Of a DNA stretch of 5,749 nt, positions 1 through 5,749 are shown piece after piece. The DNA is taken from the NCBI GenBank assembly GCA_017411235.1, contig JAFPMR010000081.1, positions 1 through 5,749 of the forward strand, written 5' to 3'. Numbering within the stretch: the first letter of the stretch is position 1; each line of letters starts with the position of its first letter. A program made the position numbers and the translations under genes. The notes under the pieces were generated by a model. It was not told the origin of the DNA. It ran no database searches and saw only the letters and a program-made list of their open reading frames with translations. The stretch comes from Bacilli bacterium (lineage in GTDB: Bacteria > Bacillota_I > Bacilli_A > RF39 > UBA660).

Positions 1-93
1 AATATCATATACATTATCTACATAATCTTTAGATAACGCAAAGACAAAGAATGGTATAAAAAGAAGAATTAAAAATATTATCTTCTTTCTCAT
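1..93 (-). CDS. N-terminus of an exported or membrane protein (partial, runs off left edge)
   Basis: Only the first 31 residues are visible; the reading frame is open to the window edge. The start is ATG at 93-91, overlapping the TGA stop of the upstream thioredoxin-like gene as ATGA, with an AAAGGAG site about 11 nt upstream. The translation begins with basic residues (MRKK), followed by a hydrophobic stretch of about 16 residues rich in Ile, Leu and Phe, then Ala-Leu-Ser-Lys-Asp and a polar segment. This is the layout of a signal peptide or first membrane helix. Coupling to a CPSC thioredoxin-like protein suggests a role in thiol redox at the membrane or cell surface, for example a CcdA-like electron carrier or a second secreted thioredoxin. 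That is inference: nothing visible identifies the family. Another ATG at 100-98 is nearer the ribosome site but its frame closes after about 23 codons. Confidence 0.6.
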   Translation of the reverse strand, partial: MRKKIIFLILLFIPFFVFALSKDYVDNVYDI

Positions 94-344
94 AGAACAT
101 TATTCTCCTTTAAAAAACTAACAATCTCTTCATAAGTCTTCTCACCTATAAGACGATTCTCTCCATAAATAATAACTGGTAATTTATCACCTACGTTATA
201 TTCCATAACTTCTTCTTCATCGAAATCATAATCTAACATTTTAATTTCAATACTACTGTATTCTTCTTGTAACTTCTTTAAATTCTTTTTCAAAATCAAA
301 CAAGAAGGACACCATACAGCACTTACAACAATTATTTCTTTCAT
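90..344 (-). CDS. Small thioredoxin/glutaredoxin-like protein with CPSC motif
   Basis: This is an 84-residue protein of the thioredoxin fold, about the size of a glutaredoxin or minimal thioredoxin. The N-terminal beta strand (residues 2-9) leads into the redox motif C12-P-S-C15 preceded by Trp11. A helix follows, then a strand around residues 32-39, and a Leu-Pro-Val segment at 55-57 where thioredoxins carry their cis-proline. The expected role is reduction or exchange of disulfides using the two cysteines. There is no signal peptide, so it is probably cytoplasmic, perhaps passing electrons to a membrane partner. ATG 344 is chosen over the in-frame GTG at 356 because a GAGGTG ribosome site lies 4 nt upstream of it and would fall inside the longer form. 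Its stop overlaps the start of the next gene by ATGA, so the two are probably co-translated. The precise substrate is unknown. Confidence 0.8.
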   Translation of the reverse strand: MKEIIVVSAVWCPSCLILKKNLKKLQEEYSSIEIKMLDYDFDEEEVMEYNVGDKLPVIIYGENRLIGEKTYEEIVSFLKENNVL

Positions 345-348
345 AATG

Positions 349-354
349 CACCTC
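349..354 (-). promoter_or_regulatory. Ribosome binding site that sets the thioredoxin-like start
   Basis: GAGGTG on the minus strand lies 4 nt before ATG 344. It favours this start over the upstream in-frame GTG at 356, which would overlap the site. Confidence 0.6.
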
Positions 355-363
355 ACAAAAACT

Positions 364-369
364 ATTATA
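364..369 (-). promoter_or_regulatory. Putative -10 element for the thioredoxin-like gene
   Basis: TATAAT on the minus strand lies about 20 nt before ATG 344, in a 72-nt AT-only-like spacer between the acetyltransferase stop and this gene. A transcription start near 357 would leave a leader of roughly a dozen bases containing the GAGGTG site. No good -35 box is found at 16-18 nt spacing; the sequence there is a T-run. The base composition makes chance matches likely, and read-through from the acetyltransferase gene remains possible. Confidence 0.35.
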
Positions 370-428
370 TCTATATATAAATAATAAAAAATAACTTTTA
401 AGTTGAAATAACTAAACTATAGGTTGAA

Positions 429-926
429 TTAAATATCTTTAGAATAATATTCAACTTCTATCTCAGTTCCATCGGGATAAGTCTCAATACCTTCTTTTAC
501 TTTTGTAGTAAAACCAAACTTAGTATAAATAGCTTTATTCTTAACTTCAGAAGGTTCTACACCTAAAGTAACTCTTTTATATCCCCTTTTTTTTAAATCG
601 TTTATCATATATTTAAATAATCTACTAAAATAACCTTTTCCTTGATATTCATCTATTGTTCTAAAAGCAGTTAAATAAGCAGTTTCATCATCAACTAAAC
701 CTTCACCATTTTGAACAATATCAGGAGTAAGTGATGCCGTTGCTTCACAAATAATCTTATTATCTAAATATCCATAATATGGTATTTGAGCACCATACTT
801 CATGCACTTAATTGCTTTTTCTTTCCAGATAATCCAATTATCTTTATCATCGGCATGATCTATTTCATAATCCCATTTGATATTCATATCTTTTAAAGTT
901 GCTATCTTACAAATGTAATTATTCAT
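429..926 (-). CDS. GNAT-family N-acetyltransferase
   Basis: This 165-residue protein is predicted to transfer an acetyl group from acetyl-CoA to an amine; the substrate cannot be read from the sequence. The acetyl-CoA pyrophosphate loop, motif A, is visible as Q95-G-K-G-Y-F followed by a helix (SRLFKYMINDLKKRG, residues 101-115). Motif B follows as VEPSEVKNKAIYTKFGF around 123-139, with the usual Asn and Tyr. The preceding strand, YLTAFRTIDE (84-93), is typical of the family's central sheet. ATG 926 is chosen over ATG 938: a GGTGAT site lies just upstream of 926, and the predicted promoter at 943-948 would start transcription near 936, downstream of ATG 938. It appears to be its own transcription unit behind the operon terminator, so a functional link with the dlt-like genes is not implied. 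The length is normal for a single-domain GNAT. Confidence 0.85.
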   Translation of the reverse strand: MNNYICKIATLKDMNIKWDYEIDHADDKDNWIIWKEKAIKCMKYGAQIPYYGYLDNKIICEATASLTPDIVQNGEGLVDDETAYLTAFRTIDEYQGKGYFSRLFKYMINDLKKRGYKRVTLGVEPSEVKNKAIYTKFGFTTKVKEGIETYPDGTEIEVEYYSKDI

Positions 927-930
927 AATA

Positions 931-936
931 ATCACC
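931..936 (-). promoter_or_regulatory. Ribosome binding site that sets the GNAT start
   Basis: GGTGAT on the minus strand is 4 nt upstream of ATG 926. The alternative ATG 938 has only a T-run before it. Confidence 0.5.
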
Positions 937-942
937 ATAAAA

Positions 943-971
943 ATTATAACACAAAAAAAACAAGCTTTTAA
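943..971 (-). promoter_or_regulatory. Putative sigma-A type promoter of the GNAT gene
   Basis: A perfect TATAAT -10 lies at 948-943 on the minus strand. At 17 nt spacing upstream is TTAAAA (971-966), a 4 of 6 match to TTGACA. The -35 falls in the loop and stem of the terminator hairpin that ends the upstream operon, so terminator and promoter share bases. The predicted transcription start near 936 gives a leader of about 10 nt. The -10 is convincing, the -35 weak. Confidence 0.5.
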
Positions 972-981
972 TAGCTTGTTT
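953..981 (-). terminator. Rho-independent terminator of the dlt-like operon
   Basis: On the minus strand a 9-bp perfect stem (AAACAAGCT pairing with AGCTTGTTT, positions 981-973 and 966-958) encloses a 6-nt loop. The stem is followed by further T residues, giving a T-run down to 953. It begins 4 nt after the TAG stop of the SGNH gene (985), as expected for the end of the operon. The stem is AT-rich with only two G-C pairs, in line with the genome. On the opposite strand the hairpin is followed by only a short T stretch, and no gene converges on it from the left. Confidence 0.8.
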
Positions 982-984
982 ATT

Positions 985-1956
985 CTAATACTTAATTATG
1001 CTTTCATCAGCTACTATACTATTATAGAACTCTAATGAATCATTCCAACTAGCATAATCTGGATCATCTCTATGATCTACTAGATTATACTTTTCTCCTA
1101 AGTATTTACCCATATAATGAGATACTTTCTTAGCTCCATAGTAATTAACATGATCACCAACATCTTTTGTATCAGTAACCCAGTCGATATCAATCTCTGA
1201 AACTAGATTTGTATCAACATAATTAATTCCTAAATATTTAGCTAAATCTCGAATAGTATTGTATTTAGAATACCACCAGTTCTTAATTTGTGGAGCTGTA
1301 TAGAACATTAATTCAATATCATTCTTTTTACAAACATCATATATCTTTCTTATATAGTATTCATCATCTTTAGGAAGAGCTTCTCTTTTATCCTTCTTAA
1401 ACATATAAACTGGTTTAGATTCTTTATATGGTTGAGAATAACGAATAAAGTAATAACCTTTTAAATCATTTCTATTAGTATAATTAACATCTGCATAGAA
1501 ATCATTCCAGTTTAATGTCTTCCATCTATCATGATATTTAATAAATGGAATATGTCTTTCTAAGAAACTAATTATTTTTAAATCATTTTTTAACTTTCTA
1601 TAGAAAGTATTTGTTTCTAATACAACAACTTTAGGATGTTGAGTCTCTAAAGCCAATAATAGATAATTGTAAGATTGATAAATCTTTTGAGCATTAGAAC
1701 CCATAACATAACTTGTATAACCATACTCAGACCATATTTCCATTGGTGAAAAAGAAGTATAAGACTCACTATCACCAATAACTAATACATCAATAGTATT
1801 CTTAGGTTCACTTAAAATACCATTAGGTCTAAACTCAGGCATTCCTGCTTCTTTAGTATTATCTTTAGGAATAAATACTATAGATAATAAATTAATAATA
1901 ACCAATAGTATAAATATAAATAATACAGGTTTAATAATATTCTCAAATCGTTTCAT
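985..1956 (-). CDS. DltD-like membrane-anchored SGNH/GDSL protein
   Basis: This 323-residue protein probably acts outside the membrane as the last step of acyl transfer to an envelope polymer, the role DltD has in teichoic acid D-alanylation. A short basic N-terminus and one hydrophobic helix (about 10-29) anchor it, with the rest predicted extracellular. The SGNH nucleophile block is VLVIGDSES at 57-65, making Ser63 the likely nucleophile. Near the C-terminus, DVGDHVNYYGAKK (265-277) supplies the likely catalytic His269 with Asp265 or Asp268. It is shorter than typical DltD (about 400 residues), so it is called DltD-like rather than dltD. ATG 1956 is chosen because GGGGTG lies just upstream; the ATG at 1980 would add eight residues with no ribosome site. 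The start overlaps the end of the MBOAT gene by 14 nt. Last gene of the operon, followed by the terminator. Confidence 0.8.
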   Translation of the reverse strand: MKRFENIIKPVLFIFILLVIINLLSIVFIPKDNTKEAGMPEFRPNGILSEPKNTIDVLVIGDSESYTSFSPMEIWSEYGYTSYVMGSNAQKIYQSYNYLLLALETQHPKVVVLETNTFYRKLKNDLKIISFLERHIPFIKYHDRWKTLNWNDFYADVNYTNRNDLKGYYFIRYSQPYKESKPVYMFKKDKREALPKDDEYYIRKIYDVCKKNDIELMFYTAPQIKNWWYSKYNTIRDLAKYLGINYVDTNLVSEIDIDWVTDTKDVGDHVNYYGAKKVSHYMGKYLGEKYNLVDHRDDPDYASWNDSLEFYNSIVADESIIKY

Positions 1957-3547
1957 GGAGCACCCCACTAAAATTAGCATAAATCGGATCTATAGGAATA
2001 TAAGCTCCTCCATATGCACCAAATATTAATAAATATAGAACAACTGCATAGTAAATAATCCATCTAAGAACGATTGGTCTACTTGCAATCTTTTCTCTAA
2101 TATTAATACCCTTTTCTCTAATAATACTTACAACAAGAACAATTATTAATGTAACACCTACAATAATAAAGTCTCCAATAGTCATACCTAATTTAAATAA
2201 CTTAGTATGTTTAAAACTAAATGCTGTAAATATCTTACCAAACATCTTTAAACCTATTCCTAGAGTTTCTGCTCTAAAGAATAATTCACCAAAGACAACT
2301 AAGATAGCAGTTTTAACCATTTGAAAAAACTGATATGGCTTACATTGTCTATTAATATGTAATTTTTCACATAACTTAATAACATAAGGTTCAATAATAT
2401 TCTCAATCAGAATAATAACAAAATGATACATTCCAAAGAAAATAAATGACCAAGCAGCACCATGCCATAAACCATTACAACTCCATACACAGAATAATGC
2501 AACAGCACCTGCTAGTAATGGTCCAAAGTGATTGCCCAAATACTTTCTACCAAATGTCGTTAATTTACGCATTGGTTTAGAAAGTGATACTGGATAGAAA
2601 ATATAATCTTTAAACCATGTACCAAGTGTAATATGCCATCTATGCCAGAATTCATTAATAGATTTAGAGAAGAATGGTTGTTTAAAGTTCTCAGGCATTT
2701 GTACATCAAAGATTTCTGCTGAACCAATAACAACATCCATAGTTCCACTAAATTCCATATATAACTGAATTGTATAGAATATAGCTGCTACTAAGATTGT
2801 TCCACCATTATAATTCATATAATTAGTAAATACATCTTTAATTAAAACATTTAATCTATCTGCAATAACAATCTTCTTTAATAAACCCCAAAGAATTCTT
2901 TGTGATCCAAAAGTTAAATTATGATAAGTAATTGGTCTTCCTTCCCATAATCTTTCAGCTGTATCACTATATCTAACGATAGGTCCTTCCATAATTTGTG
3001 GAAAGAATGCCATCCATAATGCTAATCTACCTAAATTAGTATCTGCTTTAATCTTATCATTATAAATATCTGCCATATATGAAACAGCTTGTAATGAATA
3101 GAAAGATATACCAATAGGAATTAACATCTTTGGTATTTCAAACTGAACAGTTGAATTCCAAATTTTTAATAAACTATTTATATTTTCTAAAAAGAAAGGT
3201 GTGTATTTAAGATATACTAAACAACCAATATGAACTAATATTGCAAGTTTTAATACTCTTCTTTCCTTCTTCTTATACTTTTCTTTAACTTCTTTCTTAT
3301 TTTCCTTTTCAGTTTCCTTTAAAACTTCATCTCTCTCTTGTTTAATATTATTCATCCATAGACCAAAATGGTGAATAGAAAAAGTTGAAGCTATTAGATA
3401 AAGTAATAACTTATTACTAATCATCCAAAAAAAAGCATAGCTTAGGAAGATTAACATCTTAGGCTTATGCTTTTTAGGTGTAATCCCATACAAAAGTACT
3501 GCAATTGGCAATAATATCAAGAAGTATTCCGGACTACAATAGGACAT
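1943..3547 (-). CDS. MBOAT-family membrane O-acyltransferase, AlgI-like, in a dlt-like operon
   Basis: This 534-residue polytopic protein should accept an acyl group from the cytoplasmic carrier and hand it to the outer face of the membrane. The MBOAT core is clear: INEFWHRWHITLGTWF at 297-312, and WSCNGLWHGAAW at 355-366 with the catalytic His362. The N-terminal SPEYFLILLPI (5-15), PIGISFYSLQAVSYMADIY (144-162) and FFPQIMEGPIVRY (181-193) resemble AlgI-type acetyltransferases more than DltB as I recall it. A Lys/Glu-rich cytoplasmic-looking segment (67-98) separates early helices. The C-terminus, FGAYGGAYIPIDPIYANF (509-526), has an I-Y-x-x-F element like the acyl-accepting tail of DltX and some MBOAT proteins, making Tyr523 a candidate relay residue. 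The start has a perfect AGGAGG site at 3557-3562. The gene begins 1 nt after the carrier gene and overlaps the SGNH gene. Function by analogy with dltB; the acyl group is not known. Confidence 0.85.
   Translation of the reverse strand: MSYCSPEYFLILLPIAVLLYGITPKKHKPKMLIFLSYAFFWMISNKLLLYLIASTFSIHHFGLWMNNIKQERDEVLKETEKENKKEVKEKYKKKERRVLKLAILVHIGCLVYLKYTPFFLENINSLLKIWNSTVQFEIPKMLIPIGISFYSLQAVSYMADIYNDKIKADTNLGRLALWMAFFPQIMEGPIVRYSDTAERLWEGRPITYHNLTFGSQRILWGLLKKIVIADRLNVLIKDVFTNYMNYNGGTILVAAIFYTIQLYMEFSGTMDVVIGSAEIFDVQMPENFKQPFFSKSINEFWHRWHITLGTWFKDYIFYPVSLSKPMRKLTTFGRKYLGNHFGPLLAGAVALFCVWSCNGLWHGAAWSFIFFGMYHFVIILIENIIEPYVIKLCEKLHINRQCKPYQFFQMVKTAILVVFGELFFRAETLGIGLKMFGKIFTAFSFKHTKLFKLGMTIGDFIIVGVTLIIVLVVSIIREKGINIREKIASRPIVLRWIIYYAVVLYLLIFGAYGGAYIPIDPIYANFSGVLHETI
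1961..1966 (-). promoter_or_regulatory. Ribosome binding site inside the MBOAT gene for the SGNH gene
   Basis: GGGGTG on the minus strand lies within the last codons of the MBOAT gene, 4 nt before ATG 1956. It supports that start and suggests translational coupling between the two genes. Confidence 0.5.
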
Positions 3548-3548
3548 A

Positions 3549-3779
3549 CTATTCTTCCTCCTGTAGTTTTGTAATTAATTCATAAATTTTCTTTGCTGAA
3601 TTAAAATTACTAGGAATGATTTCAACTGTAGGAATAACTACATCAAATTCATCTTCTATTTCAGCTACTAGAGATAAAATAGTTAATGAATCTAAATGGT
3701 GATCATCAATTAATGTCTCACAAGTTTTGTAATCTACTTCTGGTTGAAGTTCTTCCAAAATCTCAATTAACTTTTCCAT
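3549..3779 (-). CDS. Acyl (aminoacyl) carrier protein, DltC-like
   Basis: This 76-residue acidic protein has the size of DltC and of acyl carrier proteins generally. The 4'-phosphopantetheine attachment site is visible as HLD-S31-L at the start of the second helix. The following helix and acidic region (LVAEIEDEFDVVIP, 37-50) are characteristic of carriers that dock to ligases and transferases. It should be loaded by the DltA-like ligase encoded two genes upstream and unloaded by the MBOAT encoded directly downstream. AAAGGAG precedes ATG 3779 at 7-8 nt spacing, and only 4 nt separate it from the decarboxylase stop. Its stop lies 1 nt before the MBOAT start. The symbol dltC is withheld because the decarboxylase in the operon makes it uncertain that D-alanine is the cargo. 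No phosphopantetheinyl transferase gene is present in the window. Confidence 0.88.
   Translation of the reverse strand: MEKLIEILEELQPEVDYKTCETLIDDHHLDSLTILSLVAEIEDEFDVVIPTVEIIPSNFNSAKKIYELITKLQEEE
3557..3562 (-). promoter_or_regulatory. Consensus Shine-Dalgarno site for the MBOAT gene
   Basis: A full AGGAGG on the minus strand lies within the last codons of the carrier gene, 9 nt before ATG 3547. It is the strongest ribosome site in the window. Confidence 0.65.
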
Positions 3780-3783
3780 TTAA

Positions 3784-4962
3784 TTACTCTCCTTTATAAT
3801 TTGGTGTATTTAATACATGAGTTGGTAAACTATCTCTTACCAAATCACATTTAATACCTTTTTTCATAATAACTTTAGGTAAATCTCTACTTAAGAATAA
3901 TGATATTCCTTCACTCATACAATAAGCACCAGTATTCTTAAATATAAATACATCTCCTATAGCTAAATCTGGAACATTCAAGTCCTTAACAATTATATCA
4001 TTAATTGTACATAAAGAGCCACATAAATTCCATTTTTCTTCCTTAGAGAAATCTCTTTCTGGAATTATATCAAAATGTGGATGCTTCATAGCCATCGTTT
4101 GACCATAATAAACGATGTGATTCATTCCACCATCTAAGATAGCAAAATTACCTACTTTATTAGTCTTTTTATCAACTACACTAGTTACATAAGATCCACA
4201 ACTAGAAGCGATACTTCTACCTATTTCTAATGTAATCTTATACTTAGAACTAATAGTTTTAATTATTTCATTAAATTCCTTAAAGAAATTAACTTCATCA
4301 AATTCATCACTTTGGAAATAGTAAACTGGAAAACCAGTTCCGAATTCAATTTCTTCTATTTTAATACCATGTTTATCTTCTAAGCCATCAACAAATTCTT
4401 TCAAGTATTCTACTTCTTTAGTTAATCTCTTAGTTGAATGCTTTTGTGTACCAGAAAAATACTCAATACCATTAATAGTAATATACTCATACTTTTCATG
4501 TTTAGCAATAATACTATCAACTTCTTCTTCATTCATTCCAAATTGATTACCACTAGTTAAACGAAGTAAAACATGAATATGTCTCTTTAATTTCTTAGAT
4601 AGTTTTTCTAATAATTCAAATTGTTCTACTGATTCAGCAGTATAAATACCCATATCTTCATGATTAGTCATCATTTCTTCGATTACTTCTGGAGTTTTAT
4701 AAACACCAGAAATAACTAATTTATTCATAGGTACATTTAATTTCTTACATACTTCATATTCTCCAGGAGAACATACTTCAAATCTATCTACATAAGGATT
4801 AGCTTCACCTATGATAAAAGTATTAGCTTTAACAGCATAACATAAATCTAAATTCTTATTTAAACTCTTACGTAAATATTTTAATCTATTCTGTAATTCA
4901 TCAATATCGAATAAATAAAATGGAGTCCCAAACTTCTTAACTAATTTACTATAATCAGTCAT
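3784..4962 (-). CDS. Fold-type III PLP-dependent decarboxylase (BtrK/LysA-like) in the dlt-like operon
   Basis: This 392-residue protein has the layout of the diaminopimelate/ornithine decarboxylase superfamily: an N-terminal alanine-racemase-type barrel and a C-terminal beta domain. The PLP lysine is Lys45 in CYAVKAN. FGTGF (207-211) is the phosphate-binding glycine loop, EIGRS (246-250) the usual E-P-G-R element, and GSLCTIND (315-322) holds the catalytic Cys318 from the second subunit. GAYCMSEG (345-352) supplies the PLP-contacting Tyr347. At the ring-stacking position, where LysA and ornithine decarboxylase have histidine, the segment reads EYFSGTQ (167-173) with Phe169. CTIND differs from the CESxD element of LysA. 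These features fit decarboxylases that work beside a carrier protein, such as BtrK of butirosin synthesis and the exosortase-associated group. It overlaps the ligase gene by 8 nt and sits 4 nt before the carrier gene. Substrate is unknown; a racemase is less likely because the decarboxylase cysteine motif is present. Confidence 0.85.
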   Translation of the reverse strand: MTDYSKLVKKFGTPFYLFDIDELQNRLKYLRKSLNKNLDLCYAVKANTFIIGEANPYVDRFEVCSPGEYEVCKKLNVPMNKLVISGVYKTPEVIEEMMTNHEDMGIYTAESVEQFELLEKLSKKLKRHIHVLLRLTSGNQFGMNEEEVDSIIAKHEKYEYITINGIEYFSGTQKHSTKRLTKEVEYLKEFVDGLEDKHGIKIEEIEFGTGFPVYYFQSDEFDEVNFFKEFNEIIKTISSKYKITLEIGRSIASSCGSYVTSVVDKKTNKVGNFAILDGGMNHIVYYGQTMAMKHPHFDIIPERDFSKEEKWNLCGSLCTINDIIVKDLNVPDLAIGDVFIFKNTGAYCMSEGISLFLSRDLPKVIMKKGIKCDLVRDSLPTHVLNTPNYKGE

Positions 4963-5749
4963 TCTTCTTCACCACCAATGACATTAATTCTTTTCTATCA
5001 ATCTTACCATTCTTAGTAAGTGGCATTTCTTCAACTTGTTTTAAAATACCAGGTATCATATAAACAGGTAATGTTTCTTTTAAAGAACTATGTAATTCAG
5101 CCTTATCCATAGTACCAACATAGAAACCATATAGCTTTTGTTTTTCTTCATCAAATAAGCAGCAAGCTCTTTCTATGCCTTCTACTTTCATCATCGCTTT
5201 TTCAATCTCTTCTAATTCTATACGATGACCATTATATTTAATTTGGAAATCTTTTCTTCCTTGGAATACTAACTCATTTTGTTCATTATACATTCCAAGA
5301 TCCCCAGTTCTATAAATCAATTCAATATAATTTTTGTTTAGAGGATTTTGAACAAAATGTTTATCTGTTTCTTCTTTATTATTAAAGTATCCTAAAGCTA
5401 AACAAGTTCCGCTTACACATATTTCACCTTTAACATTAGGTTCAGTAATTAACTTATCATTATCATCTAATAAGAATACTCTTTCATTTTCAAAAGCTTC
5501 TCCTATAGGAATATATTTATCATATTCTCTATTTCTATCAATAACATGATAAGTACAATTACATGTTATTTCTGTAGGTCCATAAACATTAACAAATGTA
5601 GCTTTTGGTAAAGCTTCCATCCATTTATTTAAATGTTTAATAGGCATTACTTCTCCACTAAACAATATTTTATTAACAGTTTTTGGTACACGGTAATCTA
5701 AACCATGGAAAGTACTAATTAAACATAATGCAGATACTGCCCATACCAT
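4955..5749 (-). CDS. DltA-like AMP-forming amino acid:carrier protein ligase (partial, N-terminus beyond right edge)
   Basis: The C-terminal 264 residues of an adenylation enzyme are present; DltA is about 500 residues, so roughly the first half is outside. It should activate a carboxylate with ATP and load it on the carrier's phosphopantetheine. Visible adenylation motifs, numbered from the window edge: ILFSGEVMP (28-36), NVYGPTEIT (54-62, motif A5), GEICVSGTCLALGY (108-121, A6), YRTGDLG (146-152, A7), GRKDFQIKYNGHRIELEEIE (164-183, A8) and PLTKNGKIDR (243-252, A10) with catalytic Lys249. The A8 segment is very close to DltA. Ser31 replaces the cysteine that DltA has just before Gly-Glu, a residue tied to D-alanine selection. 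The first visible codon happens to be ATG but is not the start, because core domain sequence is missing. The 3' end overlaps the decarboxylase gene by 8 nt. Confidence 0.87.
   Translation of the reverse strand: MVWAVSALCLISTFHGLDYRVPKTVNKILFSGEVMPIKHLNKWMEALPKATFVNVYGPTEITCNCTYHVIDRNREYDKYIPIGEAFENERVFLLDDNDKLITEPNVKGEICVSGTCLALGYFNNKEETDKHFVQNPLNKNYIELIYRTGDLGMYNEQNELVFQGRKDFQIKYNGHRIELEEIEKAMMKVEGIERACCLFDEEKQKLYGFYVGTMDKAELHSSLKETLPVYMIPGILKQVEEMPLTKNGKIDRKELMSLVVKKND

Follow-up and report, generated by a model that had tools for sequence, protein, structure and literature searches.

The stretch of DNA considered here, referred to as the window, comprises 5,749 nucleotides (nt) from a Bacilli bacterium (assembly GCA_017411235.1, contig JAFPMR010000081.1, positions 1 to 5,749), and carries on its minus strand five genes, designated A, K, C, B and D, which encode an adenylating ligase, a fold-type III pyridoxal phosphate (PLP) decarboxylase, a carrier protein, a membrane-bound O-acyltransferase (MBOAT) and an SGNH protein. 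An earlier note on this DNA, made from the letters alone, had described these genes as a tight operon and had read them as a hybrid that makes a decarboxylated aminoacyl group on a carrier and exports it to an envelope polymer. The operon is borne out with the same coordinates, with A only partly contained in the window. The genes are read here, with a probability of about 0.7, as a whole five-gene pathway of envelope decoration that is a variant of the D-alanylation of teichoic acids. A search of open-licence papers turned up no description of these five genes as a set.

Layout and conservation of the operon

The genes are closely packed: A shares 8 nt with K, 4 nt separate K from C and 1 nt C from B, and B shares 14 nt with D. 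Beyond D lies a terminator-like hairpin (981-958); one such hairpin occurs in 300-1100, compared to 0.1 in shuffled sequences. Pfam domains were matched with E-values of 4.6e-17 (AMP-binding), 8.3e-16 (PLP decarboxylase C-domain), 6.2e-5 (PP-binding) and 8.8e-13 (MBOAT), while the window D protein gave no match in Pfam or NCBIfam. The window edge falls inside A, leaving the C-terminal ~260 of ~500 residues, and the ATG listed for this fragment aligns to residue 242 of the ~500-residue relatives. The start of D at 1956 is the likely one, within an open reading frame that extends to 1980.

Table 1. Features of the operon in the window
Feature	Position	Strand	Pfam
A, C-terminal part of a standalone amino-acid adenylation (ligase) enzyme	4955..5749	-	PF00501, PF13193
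K, fold-type III PLP decarboxylase, BtrK-like	3784..4962	-	
C, carrier protein, candidate phosphopantetheine Ser31 (codon 3689-3687)	3549..3779	-	PF00550
B, MBOAT acyltransferase, DltB/PatA-like, WHG active-site motif	1943..3547	-	PF03062
B, C-terminal acyl-shuttle hexapeptide PIYANF, candidate Tyr523	1970..1987	-	
D, SGNH protein, N-terminal helix, Ser63 in GDSE, D-H-x-N motif near C-terminus	985..1956	-	
Terminator-like hairpin closing the operon, 9-pair stem and T tract	958..981	-	

Related loci were gathered across genome contigs using a profile of K alone, so that the neighbouring genes formed no part of the query. At least 562 of the 597 listed stretches encode a relative of K, and the 80 best loci form the set used here (loci and genomes are numbered below with the prefixes L and G where they must be told apart). 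The order A-K-C-B-D is found in 71 of these 80 loci, one of which has a second D and one an extra B upstream, and it is therefore not due to chance, nor is it peculiar to this genome, which had been the doubt attached to the earlier note. Four further loci (L043, L064, L066 and L067) have the order A-K-B-D-C-B-D, in which the second MBOAT-SGNH pair suggests two acceptors fed by one carrier; another four follow the usual order as far as A-K, A-K-C or A-K-C-B, where the contig ends; and L068 has B-D-A-K-C, with D identified by a weak match. K lies directly after A in all 80 loci, and the next gene is C in 75, B in four and the contig end in one. Shuffled orders also occur in four more distant genomes (B-D-A-K-C in G177, G139 and G109; D-B-A-K-C in G283). 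The inter-locus distances of the five genes are correlated in all 10 gene pairs (r = 0.50-0.83, 73 loci), and for each pair none of 500 permutations gave a correlation as high, part of which is accounted for by the shared descent of the species.

The operon is found mainly in Clostridia and in some other Firmicutes. Record titles are mostly clostridial (Eubacterium, Lachnospiraceae, Oscillospiraceae, Agathobaculum, Catenibacillus, Acetobacterium), with Traorella and one Streptococcus suis record besides. The trait belongs to a minority of genomes: at an E-value of 1e-70, K was found in 10 of 296 genomes of the class of a Traorella genome and in 9 of 291 genomes of the class of a Lachnospiraceae genome, counting the centre genome in each case. 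Co-occurrence with other genes was evaluated in 48 genomes, namely 33 chosen from the 80 loci and 15 other hits of the two class scans. All five genes are present at the locus in 33/33 of the former (L068 with its weak D) and in 8/15 of the latter; in G221 the four genes other than D were checked and seen, and in six genomes K and the adjacent A were seen. An A-like match lies directly beside K in all 15 of the class-scan genomes.

The decarboxylase and the substrate of the adenylation enzyme

Among proteins of solved structure, the best sequence match to K is BtrK (131 bits; PDB 2j66 and 7ru7), followed by SbnH (103 bits) and LysA (84 bits), and K, with a ligase and a carrier adjoining, is thus a fold-type III PLP decarboxylase of the BtrK-like kind. 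K shares with BtrK the motifs GTQ and C-T-x-x-D, at both of which four LysA-type proteins differ: in the motif containing the Cys, K has Thr where these four have Glu, and their Arg is also missing from K. The motif CTxxD is present in 67 of 73 relatives of K, with Ser in place of Thr in the other six. A missing His was also considered as a trait common to K and BtrK, and was dropped because two of the four LysA-type proteins are likewise without it.

In butirosin synthesis, BtrK decarboxylates a glutamyl group that is already bound to the carrier BtrI, and by analogy K probably acts on a carrier-bound aminoacyl group. The likeness to BtrJ/BtrI/BtrK consists in the decarboxylation of a carrier-bound aminoacyl group by the closest solved relative of K in sequence; the differences are that BtrJ is an ATP-grasp ligase whereas A is an AMP-binding enzyme, and that the product of the butirosin route goes to an antibiotic rather than to the envelope. 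A ligase and a fold-type III decarboxylase, with a carrier adjoining them, also occur together in exosortase-A loci, but the operon proteins lie far below the cut-offs of both corresponding models (96 of 592 bits for TIGR03098 with the partial A, and 166.7 of 478.45 bits for TIGR03099 with K).

The pocket of A was read by motif anchors with GrsA numbering, most of the specificity positions being outside the window or at its edge. All 77 full-length relatives of A have D235, V236, K239, S301, C330, N331 and K517; among the variable positions, 278 is I, V or T, 299 is mostly L and 322 is L or V. The window fragment, which starts near 278, matches the relatives at V278, L299, S301, V322, C330, N331 and K517. 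Position 235 is that of the Asp which holds the substrate amino group, and the glutamate-activating domain of SrfAA has Lys at the position of Lys239. The invariant Lys would suit a substrate that carries a second carboxylate.

A precedent for this chemistry is provided by the macrolactam starter-unit enzymes VinN/VinL/VinO and FlvN, for which the excerpted account (PMC11284099) describes the adenylation of (methyl)aspartate onto a standalone carrier and its decarboxylation there by a PLP enzyme. VinN loads 3-methylaspartate and not the decarboxylated product, which VinO then forms on the carrier; FlvN takes Asp; and a conserved Asp holds the amino group, in beta-amino acid enzymes included (PMC11284099). 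These are polyketide pathways, and no MBOAT or SGNH protein is named in that portion of the source (PMC11284099). VinO is likened to K by its role. The earlier proposal of a dicarboxylic precursor that is loaded before it is decarboxylated is indirectly supported both by the invariant Lys239 (77/77 relatives) and by the VinN/VinO precedent (PMC11284099). Conversion of aspartate to a beta-alanyl group is slightly favoured, at somewhat under an even chance, because the VinN/VinL/VinO and FlvN systems provide the nearest logic in print; conversion of glutamate to a 4-aminobutyryl group (gamma-aminobutyric acid, GABA), to which BtrK and glutamyl-BtrI are similar, is nearly as plausible.

In one alternative, K would decarboxylate the free amino acid first, and A would then load ready-made beta-alanine or GABA onto C. 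Most fold-type III decarboxylases do act on free amino acids; this sequence of events is nevertheless unlikely, given that the invariant Lys239 and Asp235 of A suggest a substrate with an extra carboxylate, and that in the comparable Vin pathway the thioester has to be made before decarboxylation (PMC11284099).

A second alternative, marginally less likely still, retains the carrier and changes the substrate: meso-diaminopimelate would be loaded through its L-end, and K would decarboxylate the D-end on the carrier in the manner of LysA, so that a lysyl group would be transferred. K has the LysA/BtrK fold and reaches 173 bits with the LysA model TIGR01048 (below its cut-off of 297.9), the pocket of A is polar (K239, S301, N331), and dapB is found over its cut-off in 41 of the 48 genomes. 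K is kept in the remaining seven, in which no LysA-family match other than K was found at limits of 1e-40 and 1e-20, and which include G177, where a 1.88 Mb contig covers a genome of 1.9 Mb; two of the seven show weak dapB matches below the cut-off. Because of these seven genomes and of the two motifs at which K differs from the LysA-type proteins, including the Thr in place of Glu and the missing Arg, the diaminopimelate-to-lysine option of the earlier note is weakened. In G177 and G283 (L095, L097, L101, L103) the shuffled gene orders coincide with the lack of dapB over the cut-off.

The identification of K as the housekeeping LysA was part of the outcome that the earlier note had set against its own reading. 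This identification is rejected for most genomes, because 34 of the 48 (24/33 and 10/15) encode a separate LysA-family protein with a higher score, which in eight cases passes TIGR01048. In the other 14 genomes the limits of 1e-40 and 1e-20 yielded no second member of the LysA family.

Acyl transfer and the relation to canonical dlt

The carrier C has relatives in which the sequence L-x-S-L surrounds the candidate Ser in 70 of 73 cases. B matches DltB structures (E-value 5e-21), and its WHG motif is present in all 73 relatives. The C-terminus of B is likewise constrained: the last four residues are Y-A-x-F in 73 of 74 full-length relatives and YANY in the remaining one. Among four divergent B proteins the final hexapeptide is FIYAEF in one, FVYMQF in two and MMYAGF in one. 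The window B itself continues for 8 residues (1943-1969) beyond the YANF end typical of its relatives and overlaps the start of D; this tail could be real or a sequencing slip.

In the portion of PMC12148441 drawn on here, the hexapeptide of Neisseria gonorrhoeae PatA is FIYANF and its Tyr carries the acyl group, whereas Dlt systems have the motif on a protein of its own, DltX. As in PatA, the Tyr hexapeptide of B belongs to the MBOAT itself, at the C-terminal end, so that B should do without DltX. With its active-site His, its C-terminal Tyr hexapeptide and an adjoining SGNH protein, B forms with D an MBOAT-SGNH pair of the kind represented by PatA/PatB and the AlgI-type acetyltransferases. 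These pathways are described in the same portion as having no carrier protein, with PatA using acetyl-CoA (PMC12148441); here a ligase, a decarboxylase and a carrier would supply the group. The operon thus appears to bring together two features, an MBOAT fed by a carrier and a Tyr shuttle built into that MBOAT. The hybrid reading of the earlier note stands as regards Dlt-type loading, a BtrK-like decarboxylase, MBOAT/SGNH export and wide conservation, but its export half is not DltB-like in the hexapeptide, which B carries itself.

The AlphaFold2 model of D (mean pLDDT 94.6) has an SGNH fold that matches TesA, PatB and OatA and, more weakly, DltD (Foldseek, 6pfx, E-value 2e-4); DltD is absent among the 50 structure-alignment matches listed for D. 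Residues G61, S63, H269 and N271 are invariant in 52 aligned sequences, and the N-terminal helix is likely a membrane anchor.

Comparison with canonical dlt was made using the cut-offs of the DltA equivalog TIGR01734 (559.85 bits), the DltB model TIGR04091 (375 bits) and the DltC model NF003464 (68 bits). The window fragment of A matches DltA models below the cut-off, and since it is a fragment the relatives of A beside K were used instead; these score ~250-310 bits, compared to the cut-off of 560. Window B and window C reach 145 and 31 bits, each under its cut-off, and the DltD family PF04914 gave no match in window D. When the co-occurrence proposed in the earlier note was checked, DltA was found over its cut-off in 1/33 and 0/15 genomes (1/48 in all), and PF04914 anywhere in the genome in 2/33 and 0/15. 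Judged by these scores the operon is distinct from canonical dlt. It resembles the Dlt pathway (DltX-A-B-C-D) in having a standalone adenylation enzyme, a carrier, an MBOAT that would be carrier-fed and an SGNH protein in one operon, and differs from it in the added PLP decarboxylase, in the low scores of the relatives of A, in the position of the hexapeptide and in the failure of D to match DltD.

The operon might instead be an ordinary but divergent dlt operon for D-alanine, in which a LysA paralogue is merely parked. The arrangement A-C-B-D around K does resemble dltABCD, and both A and B are matched by the corresponding Dlt models at sub-threshold scores. Divergent systems may also be hidden below the cut-off elsewhere in these genomes: G015 has another DltA-like protein with 427 bits, and G032 has two DltA-like proteins above 300 bits together with DltD. 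The chances of this alternative are nonetheless slight, in view of the invariable position of K after A and the near-constant position of C after K, the scores below the Dlt cut-offs (and the absence of a DltD match in D), and the correlation of the K distances with those of the other four genes. The S. suis genome (G001) retains canonical DltA and DltD besides the operon, and the two systems are therefore probably not redundant there. Most improbable of all is that aspartate is loaded by its alpha-carboxyl and loses its beta-carboxyl to K, giving an alanyl-carrier and an alanine ester without alanine racemase, for although Asp235 and Lys239 would also fit ordinary alpha-activation (as in the SrfAA glutamate code) and the export half is Dlt-like, we know of no fold-type III beta-decarboxylase, and the canonical DltA and DltD kept by S. 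suis argue for a different product.

The proposed pathway and its genomic surroundings

From the observed genes, their linkage, folds and conserved motifs and their co-occurrence in genomes, we infer the order of steps, the substrate, product and acceptor polymer, and a role in surface charge. In the five-gene decoration pathway preferred here, A would adenylate an acidic amino acid and load its side-chain carboxylate onto the phosphopantetheine arm of C, and K would then strip the free alpha-carboxylate on the carrier to give an omega-aminoacyl thioester (beta-alanyl from Asp, 4-aminobutyryl from Glu). B would move this group from C to the Tyr of its own C-terminal hexapeptide, and D would take it on its Ser and hand it on to a hydroxyl group of a polymer in the outer envelope; the polymer would thereby gain positive charge, as in D-alanylation. 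That many gut Clostridia place beta-alanyl or 4-aminobutyryl esters, made on a carrier, on an envelope polymer through a carrier-fed MBOAT with a built-in shuttle is on the whole probable, somewhat less so than the pathway itself.

Surface amino esters set the charge of the envelope and its resistance to cationic peptides. Because the genomes examined are mostly without canonical dlt, the operon may be their route to positive charge, with a chemically different group. If the proposed pathway is correct, then D-alanyl esters and lysyl lipids are joined by a further aminoacyl modification of the surface, made with an MBOAT that has its own acyl shuttle and receives the group from a carrier and not from acyl-CoA. 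The pathway would thereby unite two arrangements described as separate in the cited portion of PMC12148441, the carrier-fed MBOAT of Dlt and the built-in Tyr shuttle of PatA and its kin. A beta-alanyl or GABA ester would escape analyses aimed at D-alanine only.

A mobile origin of the operon was considered and rejected: K was encoded in none of three pattern-matching stretches of viral contigs, and was not found in 72,556 plasmid records at an E-value of 1e-40. All five genes also occur in MT836540.1 (L105), a human faecal record that bears the label Bacteriophage sp. The six neighbours scanned there comprise two ABC transporters, a metallo-hydrolase, a two-component pair and one protein without a match; they are of bacterial type, and the record is therefore probably bacterial DNA in a virome assembly.

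Clustering of the flanking genes, in which the clusters annotated were those of a two-component pair, gave no tie to one polymer. This pair is the commonest neighbour. Two recurring families have as annotated members a response regulator and a histidine kinase, and of the 56 loci with 3 kb of upstream sequence, 26 encode a member of these families in that interval. Upstream of A in L027, L065, L050 and L105 there is a winged-helix response regulator and a HisKA kinase, co-directional or divergent (in L065 the kinase only was scanned). A third cluster comprises proteins of ~390 amino acids at 15 loci, on either side of the operon. The surroundings of L068 resemble a polysaccharide cluster, with genes for a nucleotidyl transferase, an ABC-2 exporter and an NDP-hexose dehydratase. 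In the window itself, a thioredoxin-like protein with a CPSC motif (90-356) adjoins a GNAT protein outside the operon.

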